Virus record (IMG/VR): IMGVR_UViG_3300021961_000670
Coordinates: 1-23,005 of that record
Source: a virus
Strand: one strand, 5' to 3'
DNA length: 23,005 bases
Shown: positions 2,280 to 18,619 of the stretch, one piece after another
How positions within the stretch are numbered: the stretch's first letter is position 1
Layout: the number at the start of each line of letters is the position of its first letter
The notes under the pieces: generated by a model
Seen by the model: only the letters and a program-made list of their open reading frames with translations
What the model was told of the DNA's origin: nothing
The model's database searches: none
Translations under genes and position numbers: made by a program

Positions 2280-2768
2280 ATGGCAGATTTATTAATGAAA
2301 ATGCCGGCTCCATATGAGCCGAAAAGAGTTAACCGATTCATCGTTAGATTCGACTCATCTTTGGGTATCAACGAATGGTTCGTAACCTCAGCAGCTAGAC
2401 CTAGTGCGAAAATTAACTCAGTCGCAATTCCTTTCTTGAATACTTCAACATATGTTGCGGGTAGATTCGAGTGGAATGAGATTCGTGTAACATTTAAAGA
2501 CCCAATCGGACCTTCTGCGTCTCAAGCTTTGATGGAATGGTTCCGTTTACACGCGGAGTCTGTAACAGGTAGAATGGGATATGCTGCTGGATATAAGAAA
2601 AACGTAGATTTAGAAATGTTAGACCCAACAGGTGTTGTGGTTGAAAAATGGAAATTAGAAGGTTGTTTCATCACTGATTTAAACTTCAACGAACTTGACT
2701 ATTCAAGAGACGATTTAGCTTCAATCACGTGTTCTTTAAGAATGGATAGATGTATCCAAATTTACTAA
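2280..2768 (+). CDS. Tail tube protein, gp19-like
   Basis: This is the subunit of the inner tail tube, stacked as hexamer rings inside the sheath and serving as the DNA channel. The length of 162 aa matches T4 gp19 (163 aa). Typical features are the N-terminal KRVNRFIVRFDS strand, PSAKINSVAIPFLN, the central FEWNEIRVTFKDPIGPSASQALMEWFRLHAES segment with its conserved W and helix, and the C-terminal LEGCFITDLNFNELDYSRDD strand. The first ATG is used because the N-terminus then matches the usual start; a second in-frame ATG lies five codons in. The leader has no Shine-Dalgarno and is rich in A. The gene is flanked by terminators on both sides, so it is probably transcribed alone and strongly. 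Confidence 0.95.
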   Translation: MADLLMKMPAPYEPKRVNRFIVRFDSSLGINEWFVTSAARPSAKINSVAIPFLNTSTYVAGRFEWNEIRVTFKDPIGPSASQALMEWFRLHAESVTGRMGYAAGYKKNVDLEMLDPTGVVVEKWKLEGCFITDLNFNELDYSRDDLASITCSLRMDRCIQIY

Positions 2769-2867: not shown

Positions 2868-3617
2868 ATGGAACAATTAAGAATAGACCCTTCAATCGCA
2901 TACGACGTTGTTGAACTACCAAGTAAAGGTATTCACTACGCAAATAAAAAGAAATCATTAAGAGTTGCGTATTTAACCGCATCCGATGAAAATATTTTAG
3001 CAGCACCTAGTTTAGTCACAACAAATAGTGTAGTAACTGAATTACTAAAAAGAAAAATTTTAGATAGAGACATTTCAGTTGATGAAATAGTTGAAGAAGA
3101 TAAACAAGCAATCTTAATATTCTTAAGAAACACCGCGTTTGGTTCCGAATATAAAATTACTGCGGTAGACCCAAAAACTGAACAAGAATTTACATTCGAC
3201 GTTGACCTTTCATTACTTAAGGTTAAAGATTTTAACCTTAAAGAAGATTCGAACGGTGAATACACCTATTTCATGGAAAGGTCAAAGAAAGAAGTTACTT
3301 TTAAATTTCTAACTCAAAAACAAGAAAATGAAGTTAAAGACATCGAAAAAAGTTGGAGTGGTTTAGGTATTGCCCCAATTGTAACAAAACAACTTGAAAT
3401 GATGATTCAGTCAGTTGGAGGTGTTAGAGATAATATGTCAATTAGAGATTTTGTTGAAAACCTACCAATCAAAGATTCACAAGACTTCAAAAAATACGTT
3501 AGAGAAAATAAACCTGGTCTCGATTTGACCCAAACAGTAAATACCCCGTCAGGAGACACAATCCAAGTTGAAATTGGGTTCGGGGTTGAGTTTTTTCGTC
3601 CTTTCTACGGATTATAA
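2868..3617 (+). CDS. gp26-like baseplate hub assembly / tail assembly chaperone protein
   Basis: A 249-aa soluble protein resembling the T4 gp26 / 'T4 baseplate protein' family (Pfam T4_baseplate, from memory). The supporting pattern is an N-terminal LPSKGIHYANKKKSLRVAYLTASDENIL (residues 17-44), then a helical stretch, then FLRNTAFGSEYKITAVDP followed by a DVDLS segment (residues 85-115). In related proteins this second part often carries a Cys pair, absent here. T4 gp26 is 208 aa. Its position between the tube and the tape-measure candidate is where most long-tailed phages put a tail assembly chaperone, which holds the tape measure before tube growth. The 3' end overlaps an ATG-less ORF in another frame, and a T6 slip site with a hairpin lies nine to ten codons before the stop. 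Family assignment is fairly secure; the chaperone role is inference from position. Confidence 0.72.
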   Translation: MEQLRIDPSIAYDVVELPSKGIHYANKKKSLRVAYLTASDENILAAPSLVTTNSVVTELLKRKILDRDISVDEIVEEDKQAILIFLRNTAFGSEYKITAVDPKTEQEFTFDVDLSLLKVKDFNLKEDSNGEYTYFMERSKKEVTFKFLTQKQENEVKDIEKSWSGLGIAPIVTKQLEMMIQSVGGVRDNMSIRDFVENLPIKDSQDFKKYVRENKPGLDLTQTVNTPSGDTIQVEIGFGVEFFRPFYGL

Positions 3618-3625
3618 AAAAGGAC
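3591..3625 (+). promoter_or_regulatory. Candidate programmed frameshift site with hairpin
   Basis: The frame of the 249-aa gene reads GAG TTT TTT CGT here. The T6 run followed by C (3591-3597) lets a Phe tRNA move +1 from TTT to TTC, or -2 from TTT to TTT. Either shift enters the frame of the downstream ORF. Directly after it GTCCTTT (3598-3604) pairs perfectly with AAAGGAC (3619-3625), and the zero-frame stop codon lies in the loop. The hairpin is closer to the slip site than in classic cases, which lowers confidence. Confidence 0.55.
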
Positions 3626-3747
3626 AATTAGACGAATTTTTATTCTTAATTAAAAGAGGTTTCACATATGGTGACATTCTCACCATGCCAATTTGGGAAA
3701 GACGTTACTATGTTAACTATTTAATAGAATTAGAAAACAAACAATAA
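3598..3747 (+). CDS. Tail assembly chaperone C-terminal extension, expressed by frameshift
   Basis: This 49-codon segment follows the slip site in the +1/-2 frame and ends at TAA 3745-3747, 13 nt before the next start codon. The frame is open only from 3541, and it has no ATG or GTG until a Met at 3685, near its end; only TTG codons precede that. The peptide contains GQLDEFLFLIKRGFTYGDI then LTMPIWERRYYVNYLIELEN. A helical segment followed by a 'MP..ERR...N.L' motif is what I recall in the small C-terminal partners of phage tail assembly chaperones and in T4 gp51-type hub catalysts. The fusion would be 292 residues (+1) or 293 (-2). In T4 itself gp26 and gp51 are separate genes. That it is translated is inferred from its coding-like sequence and exact fit in the gap. 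Confidence 0.6.
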   Translation, partial: VLSTDYKKGQLDEFLFLIKRGFTYGDILTMPIWERRYYVNYLIELENKQ

Positions 3748-3760: not shown

Positions 3761-5677
3761 ATGGCAACACAAACTAAAGAGTGGTATGTAAATAATAGTA
3801 GTACTAAAGCAGAAGCCTTAGGTAAATACCAATTAGATCTTGGTACCGATTCGCCAGACCCAGCAATTGTAAATCATATTAAAAGTCAAAGTTCATTTGG
3901 TAGAGACATTCGAAAACCAAGTACAGGAAGAAATTCATCATCATCAGGTTCAACATCAAACGTTACAGGTAACTTAGCCGAAGGACTTCAAGGAGCGTTA
4001 GACGTATTCAAATCAACATCTGATTATGGTAATGTAAGTGATAAAGAAACATATAATGTTTCAAGTGTATTGGAAACCATATCAAAAGACGGACTTTCAG
4101 CAAAAACCCTTTTAGCTGGAATGGGAGATACTGTACAACAAATATCAAATCAATTAGCGATTGAATCCCAATTAAGAACTGACATTAATGAAAAAACAGG
4201 TTTAGCAGGTAAATTATCAAAAGATGTAAGAGCTGAAATTGTTGAATCAACGAGTCAAGCGGTTAGATTTGGTTATGGTATTGATGATATTACAGGGGCA
4301 TATGAAAAATTAATCGAGGAAAGTGGTAGATTTAATATTGTTAATCAACAAACTTTAGAAGGGTCATTAGGGGTATCAAGGGCGTTTATTGGAGATTATA
4401 AAGAAATTGGAGCAGTTTTCAATGAATTTGAAAAAGTTGGTTTTGGTGCAAGAGATGCTATAAAGGCGATTGATAGGGCGGGTACCGAATCACAAGGATT
4501 AGGGTTAAGAGGAAAAACAACTGTTAAAGATATTAGAGATAATATCGAAAAACTTAATCAATATGGGTTCCAAAAAGGTATTGACGGACTTGCTCAAATG
4601 TCAAGAAAGGCTACCGAATTTAGAATGAGTATGGGTGAGGCGTTTAAGGTTGCTGATAGTGTTATGGACCCTGATAAGGCGATTGAATTATCCGCAAACT
4701 TACAAGTATTAGGTGGTGCCATTGGGGCGTTTAATGACCCATTAAAATTAATGTACATGGCCACAAATAATGTGGAAGGATTACAGGACGCATTAATTGA
4801 AGCCGCTGGTAGTTTAGCCACTTACAATTCAGAACAAGGTAGATTTGAAATCACGGGGGTTAATTTAAGAAGAGCTAAAGAAATGGCCAATCAACTTGGA
4901 GTTGATTATAAAGAACTTACTAAGAGTGCAATTGCTTCACAAGAAAGATTGGCAGCTAGTAGTGATTTAATGGCTAGAGGATTTGACATGGACGAAAAGG
5001 ATAAAGAATTCCTAATCAACATGTCAAGAATGGATGGTGGTAGAATGGTTATTGACGTACCAAAAAGTCTACAAGCTAGTTTAGGGATAAAAGATACCCA
5101 AGTTGCGTTAACAGATTTAACCGACTCACAAGCAAACGCACTGAAAAAATATCAAGAGGAAATGGGTAACATGACCTCAGAAGAAGTTGCGAGAGACCAA
5201 TTTGAATCTATAACAAATATCCAAAGAGATGTTAATTCGATTGTCACAATGGCTAGAATTAGATTGGCTGGTGGTATTAGGGGTGAAGGTGGATTAAATT
5301 TAGATAATATCACTAAAGGTTTAGAAAATCAATTAACACAATATAGTAATAAAGTACAAAAGGGTGAAAGTGGAACAGTCCTTCAAGATTTAAAAACTAG
5401 TATACAAGAAAAATTAGATGTTGTAAAGGCAACTGGTTTCGGAGGGGCGGTAATGTCAAAAATTGAAAGTTTACAGACAAAACTAAATGAAGTTACGGGT
5501 GCTAATAGTACAAACAATAATGCCACACCAAACACATCATTACCAACCGCAAAAAATGTTAACTTAAATATTACAGTTCCAAACATTGGGGATCAAATAA
5601 GTAGAGAAATTGTTAGAAATCAAGATGTATGGTCAGATGTATTCTCAAGAGCAGAAAAGGATTATTTGTCACTTTAA
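3761..5677 (+). CDS. Probable tail tape-measure protein
   Basis: A 638-aa protein in the tape-measure position, after tube and chaperone and before the baseplate genes. The tape measure is an extended rod that sets tail length and is threaded through the growing tube. T4 gp29, with the same job, is 590 aa, so a tail of about T4 length is implied. Visible features are a Ser/Gly/Thr-rich low-complexity N-terminal part (about 45-75), mostly helical sequence from about 120 on, a Gly/Ala-rich stretch (LGGAIGAFNDPLKLMYMATN, about 320), and a Asn/Thr-rich spacer (about 580-600) before a short C-terminal tail. No convincing transmembrane segment is seen, unlike many tape measures. No enzymatic motif was recognised. 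The call rests on position, length and helical composition; another internal tail or hub protein remains possible. Confidence 0.62.
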   Translation: MATQTKEWYVNNSSTKAEALGKYQLDLGTDSPDPAIVNHIKSQSSFGRDIRKPSTGRNSSSSGSTSNVTGNLAEGLQGALDVFKSTSDYGNVSDKETYNVSSVLETISKDGLSAKTLLAGMGDTVQQISNQLAIESQLRTDINEKTGLAGKLSKDVRAEIVESTSQAVRFGYGIDDITGAYEKLIEESGRFNIVNQQTLEGSLGVSRAFIGDYKEIGAVFNEFEKVGFGARDAIKAIDRAGTESQGLGLRGKTTVKDIRDNIEKLNQYGFQKGIDGLAQMSRKATEFRMSMGEAFKVADSVMDPDKAIELSANLQVLGGAIGAFNDPLKLMYMATNNVEGLQDALIEAAGSLATYNSEQGRFEITGVNLRRAKEMANQLGVDYKELTKSAIASQERLAASSDLMARGFDMDEKDKEFLINMSRMDGGRMVIDVPKSLQASLGIKDTQVALTDLTDSQANALKKYQEEMGNMTSEEVARDQFESITNIQRDVNSIVTMARIRLAGGIRGEGGLNLDNITKGLENQLTQYSNKVQKGESGTVLQDLKTSIQEKLDVVKATGFGGAVMSKIESLQTKLNEVTGANSTNNNATPNTSLPTAKNVNLNITVPNIGDQISREIVRNQDVWSDVFSRAEKDYLSL

Positions 5678-17863: not shown

Positions 17864-18619
17864 ATGATTTCAGGTTCATTTGCCACAACTGGCTCAACCC
17901 AAACAAGGACATCCTTATCATACATTAACGATTTGGTTACAGGTGCTACAGCACAAGGACTTTACCGTATTGTAGTTCCGAATCAATTCATGGATGATAA
18001 TATGGCTAACGTATTAAGACGTACATATGGATACCAAGTTCAATCAAGAACATCTTTAATGGGGACTTTTGATGATTATATCATCTCATGGGCACCACCA
18101 ATGCCAACCGCCACACCAGCACCGACGGCTTATCCGACAGCCACACCAACACAGACCCCTAATTCGACACCTAGTCCAACAGAAACGAATTATCCAACAC
18201 CTAATCCGACATCAACACCTAACCCAACCGCAACACCTAACCCAACGGCGTCTCCAGCACCAACTGCGAACCCAACGGCTACACCTGTGGCACCTACACC
18301 AACACCTACAGCAACATCACTCTACCAATCGTATAACTATAGTATCAGTGCTACCGACATAGCAGCGGCAACAGGTAATACAGGTCCAAACGCCGCGTAT
18401 AACAATAAAGTTGTGGTTGTGGTAACAAATGGTTATAATTGTGGAAATACAACTGTTCGTAACTTTACATACTCGTTTAGTTCACCGGGACCTTCATTTA
18501 TATCTTGGTTGATTTCACTAAAAACCAACGTACCTGTTTTAGGATATTATAAAGACGATGTTTTAGTTACATCAGGTCTTATTTCAACTCAAACAGCGAA
18601 TCCTTCGGTTCCTTGTTAA
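17864..18619 (+). CDS. Virion-type protein with long Pro/Thr linker (251 aa)
   Basis: This product has three parts. An N-terminal globular region (1-76) contains [20 protein letters not shown], a conserved W and R-rich turns. Residues 77-152 form a mucin-like linker of Pro, Thr, Ala, Asn and Ser in PTATP-type repeats. A C-terminal domain (153-251) is beta-rich, with [13 protein letters not shown] and a Cys at the very end that may pair with C193. No signal peptide or membrane segment is visible. The layout resembles virion surface proteins, in which an anchor is joined to a displayed domain by a flexible stalk. It ends at a strong terminator and closes the late-type cluster. Function is not recognised; decoration protein, whisker or tail fibre part are options. 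Confidence 0.65.

Follow-up and report, generated by a model that had tools for sequence, protein, structure and literature searches.

The stretch of viral DNA analyzed here (IMG/VR record IMGVR_UViG_3300021961_000670, 23,005 nucleotides; hereafter the window) has a G+C content of 33% and carries a myovirus tail cluster in which sheath, tube, a 249-aa gene and a 638-aa gene follow one another in that order (Table 1). The 249-aa protein was matched to PF12322 (T4_baseplate), the family of T4 gp26 and gp51, with E = 1.7e-6 over residues 28–231 and a score of 28.3 bits, which passes the curated cut-off of 24.5 bits across the domain; it was also matched to phrog_150 (baseplate hub) with E = 1.4e-10. 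Pfam and phrog profiles gave no convincing family match for the 638-aa protein. The gene at its position in Flavobacterium phage immuto is annotated as tail tape measure protein, and by synteny with immuto the 249-aa gene is placed between tail tube and tape measure, as in G/GT-type chaperone genes. Position and family both support the role of tail assembly chaperone that had been suggested in a preliminary description of this DNA.

Shine-Dalgarno motifs were found upstream of none of the 15 window genes examined. A Bacteroidota host would fit both these missing motifs and the kinship to immuto. Beside the tail genes, positions 17864–18619 encode a protein with a long repeat stretch, probably a low-complexity structural protein.

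The zero-frame stop of the 249-aa gene (3615–3617) sits within an open +1 frame, and the ATG of the next gene follows at 3761. The part of the +1 frame that would be read after a shift, 3598–3744, would bring the product to 292 aa (TAC-NC, gp51-like). Gene, open frame, first ATG and T6C run all lie where the preliminary description had put them.

Table 1. Features of the chaperone locus, in window coordinates
Feature	Position	Strand	Evidence or remark
Tail tube protein (T4 gp19 family), upstream neighbour	2280..2768	+	PF06841 E=5.3e-7; phrog_4542 E=5.8e-28
Zero-frame gene, short chaperone (TAC-N, gp26-like), 249 aa	2868..3617	+	PF12322, phrog_150, 49 viral-contig loci
Open +1 frame	3541..3747	+	First ATG at 3685; stop TAA 3745-3747
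5' arm of conserved upstream RNA stem, ACCCCG	3543..3548	+	CCCC invariant 31/31; found by RNAalifold unaided
Inner hairpin of upstream structure	3561..3579	+	3561-3566 with 3574-3579; 90% of cells paired
3' arm of conserved upstream RNA stem, CGGGGT	3581..3586	+	GGGG invariant
Putative shift site TTT_TTT_C	3591..3597	+	P-site tRNA on 3594-3596 (TTT) would re-pair with 3595-3597 (TTC)
A-site codon CGT, rare arginine codon	3597..3599	+	CGC 20, CGT 13, CAG 1 of 34
Downstream 7-bp inverted repeat	3598..3625	+	3598-3604/3619-3625; present in window, not conserved
Downstream neighbour, 638 aa, tape-measure slot by synteny	3761..5677	+	

Conservation of the +1 frame and selection on the extension

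A scan of viral contigs with the window protein returned 49 loci, with proteins 62–100% identical; the 45 loci that hold the full region, window counted in, are referred to as the window clade. In all 45 the zero frame ends in FF[RQ]PF[YF]G[LIV] and the +1 frame is open beyond the zero-frame stop. A profile scan added 80 further loci, which form a second clade around immuto, and in each of the 79 readable ones the +1 frame is likewise open past the stop. Immuto-clade proteins are out of reach of the PF12322 model and were placed by phrog_150 and by direct similarity to the window protein. Their extensions are 27–37% identical to those of the window clade, and at most loci they carry the motif FF.LT, then ...GGY...T[VI]Y.MP.WLR. 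Among isolates, an open +1 frame was seen at the same place in immuto, Microcystis phage Mel-JY01 and Streptococcus phage GXN1, and at the corresponding place in Bacillus SP-15, Listeria LIS04 and Rhodothermus RM378; it is also open at the extension site of the metagenomic LR756508.

For tests of frame and selection, the 38 codons after the zero-frame stop were compared in 33 unique window-clade sequences. None of the 33 has a +1 stop in these codons, and both other frames are closed in all 33. Pooled dN/dS was 0.10 for the extension versus 0.30 for the gene body. In simulations of one sequence of window-like composition, 43 open codons arose by chance in about 3.5% of cases; an open frame in a single sequence is thus modest evidence, and it is the conservation that carries the weight. 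The extension is a conserved domain under strong purifying selection, and a selected out-of-frame extension behind a conserved shift site, as in G/GT-type genes, is what was found here. The programmed frameshift into an ATG-less extension that had been proposed from the window alone is supported by these counts.

Start codons in the extension

In several database records the tail of the extension is called as a small hypothetical gene of its own: L050 5854–5964 (immuto_232), L066 3821–3940 (SP15_046), L157 2328–2537 (121Q_595), L159 2376–2552 (GAP32_242) and L051 5728–5964 (WWT39326.1).

Such calls as immuto_232 and SP15_046 would fit a reading in which the extension is a separate small protein: ribosomes would reinitiate close to the zero-frame stop on a codon other than ATG, and translation would be independent or coupled to the gene before it. 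The location of that stop inside the open +1 frame would suit reinitiation, and many members have TTG codons where the +1 frame is open. Those of the window (e.g. 3568), however, are confined to the part that also codes in the zero frame. In 8 of 34 unique sequences of the window clade and 17 of 73 of the second clade, the +1 frame does not open until right beside the slip site, as in GGGGTAGAATTTTTTC. Window-clade members whose +1 frame has a TAG immediately ahead of the slip site have no ATG, GTG or TTG until the conserved MP motif, and yet FF.LS..Y, which lies upstream of that motif, is conserved although these members have no start there. A usable start is thereby absent from about a quarter of the relatives, and the lack of ATG noted in the window extends to them. 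The window genes lack Shine-Dalgarno motifs, and T4 gp51 carries the domain fused in frame. Together these observations make a separately initiated protein improbable.

Shift site and direction

In all 34 unique window-clade sequences the codon at position −7 from the stop, which would occupy the P site, is TTT and the next base is C. The A-site codon is CGY in every sequence but that of L029, which has CAG; per 1000 codons the window uses CGC 0.1 times and CGT 5.6 times, versus 28 for AGA. As a sequence pattern, a putative UUU_CGN site of the +1 class is present in 33 of the 34. The pattern X_XXY_YYZ of the −1 class was not found in register, as the zero frame reads TTT TTT C and the −1 frame is closed in 33 of 33. 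Across the second clade, the P-site codon and following base are TTT_T at 61 of 79 loci and CTT_T at 18, within the codons TTT TTT TGG (59), TTT CTT TGG (15), TTT CTT TAC (3), TTT TTT TAC (1) and TTT TTT TTC (1). Re-pairing one base forward is possible in all members of both clades, from TTT to TTC or TTT and from CTT to TTT.

The uninterrupted T run itself is less constant. T6 is present in 32 of the 34 window-clade sequences and broken as TTCTTTC in L016 and L025; T7 or longer is seen at most second-clade loci, and the run is broken as TTTCTTT at 18 of 79. T6C as a strict requirement was therefore rejected. Since the +1 extension is kept where the run is broken, two further readings of the site are disfavored. 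Transcriptional slippage on the T6/T7 run, in place of ribosomal frameshifting, would draw on the long runs that most members share, but with intact extensions behind the interrupted runs of both clades we regard it as very unlikely. A −2 shift at TTTTTT would lead into the same frame as +1, and −2 frameshifting is known in phage Mu. It would nevertheless leave the Phe or Leu anticodon mispaired in the TTCTTTC and TTTCTTT members, whereas +1 pairs in all, and it appears a shade less likely again; of the two directions left open in the preliminary description, +1 or −2, the data favor +1. Finally, a sequencing or assembly indel that splits one continuous frame, for which a homopolymer at the junction might be blamed, is excluded for practical purposes by relatives that share the arrangement, namely 124 loci in two clades, together with the sequenced isolates immuto, SP-15 and LIS04.

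RNA structure around the shift site

Upstream of the shift site, RNAalifold identified a stem whose 3' arm ends 4 nt before the T6C run. Its four C-G pairs are invariant and hence uninformative on pairing, so that covariation evidence rests mainly on the flanking pair, which is GC in 15 sequences, AU in 8, GU in 4 and other in 4. The Gly codon within the 3' arm is GGG in 34 of 34 sequences, though GGG makes up 5% of Gly codons. The region folds more stably than synonymous recodings of it (mean z −2.0, 26 sequences), against averages between −0.8 and +0.3 for other stretches of the 249-aa gene. The hairpin enclosed by the stem has one pair changed on both sides and is more weakly supported than the outer stem.

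The perfect 7-bp hairpin that the preliminary description had pointed to downstream does exist in the window, with the zero-frame stop in its loop, but it is not conserved: no compensatory change was seen and at least one pair is broken in 20 of 31 sequences. It was rejected as a stimulator.

No Shine-Dalgarno sequence next to the E site is conserved in the window-clade alignment. A conserved stem was also searched for in the second clade and none was found there, which makes the upstream stem, as judged from the alignments, a feature at the level of the clade. Because the stem is confined to the window clade and CGY is not universal, no single stimulator explains all cases. In 70S assays, hairpins upstream of the slip site favor +1 shifting and reduce −1 shifting, much as internal Shine-Dalgarno duplexes do (PMC6321510). 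The window stem is farther from its slip site than the E-site-adjacent duplexes of that study.

Relation to T4 gp26 and gp51

T4 gp26 ends with the PF12322 domain, and gp51 consists of this domain (residues 1–201) plus about 48 residues. For the extension, helices were predicted at residues 2–21, 26–31 and 34–50 (mean pLDDT 88), and for the gp51 C terminus at 206–221, 226–231 and 234–248, that is, in the same order and with loops of 4 and 2 residues. When the extension was searched with Foldseek against a library of viral structures, the highest query TM-score, 0.80 over 49 columns, was obtained with gp51 of Acinetobacter phage ZZ1; the weak E-value (1.5) reflects the small size of the domain, 51 aa. 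At the profile level, hmmsearch of the window clade alone against gp51 was weak and not decisive, and hhalign of window-clade extensions against gp51 was suggestive only (4 of 400 shuffles as good), while a profile pooled from all extensions beat all 200 column shuffles when aligned with the gp51 C terminus. By helix layout, TM-score and pooled profile, the predicted long form includes the gp51 C-terminal domain.

The same family is present in T4 and in the window, with the domain on its own as the short form and, as the long form, the domain followed by the shared three-helix C terminus. They differ in that T4 has two diverged genes with one frame each and the window has one gene with a predicted +1 shift. 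Examination of T4 gp26 revealed no +1 extension, and complete genomes contain one PF12322 gene in SP-15, LIS04, GXN1, Atu_ph07 and RM378 and two in T4. On sequence and predicted structure, the short and long forms that would here be made from one gene appear to have their counterparts in gp26 and gp51. The link to gp26 and gp51 drawn in the preliminary description is supported by PF12322, the pooled profile and the helix layout; its fusion length of 292–293 residues holds as 292, but its composition, gp26 joined to gp51, does not. As gp51 has the gp26-like domain and the C-terminal domain in one frame, the fusion matches gp51 alone and the unshifted product matches gp26.

Several further observations concern this family. 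Phage RB43 (L151 1501–3187) has three genes in tandem, all on one strand, at the place of T4 genes 51, 26 and 25; a match to gp51 identified the first, position and size the other two. In T4, unlike RB43, 26 and 51 are divergent. The RB43 order would fit a tandem duplication. On a T4-like contig (L064 3001–3363) the gp51 frame stops after about 120 codons, while tblastn matches residues 1–247, and the break may be a frameshift, an insertion or a sequencing error. Weak similarity links the extension family (window 3592–3744) to phrog_32580 (tail assembly chaperone) and to Pfam DUF6760, a family of unknown function, for which the best E was 1e-4 and 8 of the 50 members reached an E of 1 or less.

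Proposed mechanism

Very probably, then, this T4-related phage has a chaperone gene for tail assembly, a member of the gp26/gp51 family, whose expression involves programmed ribosomal frameshifting in the +1 direction. The majority of ribosomes would stop at the zero-frame stop codon and release the 249-aa short form, comparable to gp26. While a ribosome waits over the rare A-site codon CGT, its P site would hold TTT, and in some cases the peptidyl-tRNA-Phe would re-pair one base forward on TTC; +1 reading on to 3744 would give the long form, whose three-helix C-terminal domain would be the equivalent of the gp51 C terminus. In the window clade the conserved stem upstream of the slip site probably pushes the ribosome forward, in place of an internal Shine-Dalgarno of the prfB type. 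If the parallel with lambda gpG/gpGT holds, the short molecules would be many and the long ones few, and they would cover the tape measure protein and bring in the tube protein.

Testable assignments follow for T4, with gp26 as short form and gp51 as long form. The locus also offers a candidate +1 site that seems to function with no help from a Shine-Dalgarno sequence, and annotations that overlook the extension, or list it as a gene of its own, can be corrected accordingly.

Comparison with known systems

The closest bacterial parallel in mechanism would be Escherichia coli prfB (RF2), where +1 frameshifting occurs at CUU_UGA with an internal Shine-Dalgarno. P-site re-pairing and +1 direction would be shared, and part of the second clade even has CTT_T. 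The window clade differs in having CGY, not a stop codon, in the A site and an upstream stem instead of the internal Shine-Dalgarno. Tail assembly chaperones of the lambda gpG/gpGT type (Xu, Hendrix, Duda 2004) shift −1, whereas the window gene is predicted to shift +1.

Slip codon, A-site codon and +1 direction are shared with two other systems, as described in the accessible portions of the respective reports: influenza PA-X, where UCC_UUU_CGU represents the known +1 class UUU_CGN (PMC3498833), and the HF1-group haloviruses, for which a TTT-CGC +1 site has been proposed in the chaperone gene (PMC7230728). The ribosomes are eukaryotic and archaeal in these cases, the PA-X protein is different, and those portions describe no upstream stem.

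In a 2016 review, T4 stands as the exception among long-tailed phages with regard to the G-T frameshift (PMC5009743). From papers that cite Vladimirov et al. 2022, it can be gathered that some T4-like phages have separate short and long chaperone genes (PMC10885494) and that poly-T −1 signals in T4-like phages are credited to the same work (PMC12846349). To judge by these citing papers, both the −1 cases and T4 gp26/gp51 as two separate chaperone genes have been published before. In the searchable literature, where Vladimirov et al. 2022 is represented by the papers citing it, no mention was found of the +1 branch, of the rare CGY codon or of the upstream stem; the +1 branch with its upstream stem appears to be a new variant.

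The −1 direction is met within the family as well. In RaK2, PA5oct, 121Q, Vibrio 2.275.O, GAP32, Phosso and Atu_ph07, an extension in the −1 frame lies behind T_TTT_TTC. These jumbo phages share with the window the family, the shift position and the T6C letters, and their extension is homologous as well (E 6.5e-6 with the window clade, and 1.5e-7 in a second comparison with +1 extensions); they differ in the frame of the extension, the T6C of the window standing in another register, where it would serve +1. In L068 (LR756511), near 3700, PF12322 is continued in the −1 frame behind GGTTTTTTCTTC into a charged linker, after which a distant form of the shared C-terminal motif follows (INERKYIIHKFIE).

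One family, as read from its genes, has three routes to a short and a long form: a +1 shift, a −1 shift and two genes. Since relatives of gp26/gp51 keep the frameshift in both directions, the two genes of T4 look like a replacement for it. A wider scenario is offered tentatively, as possible rather than probable: that in phages of non-Shine-Dalgarno hosts an upstream stem replaces the internal Shine-Dalgarno and drives +1 shifting on UUU_CGY, and that the direction was flipped between −1 and +1 by a register change of T6C, the shift finally being replaced by gene duplication in T4.
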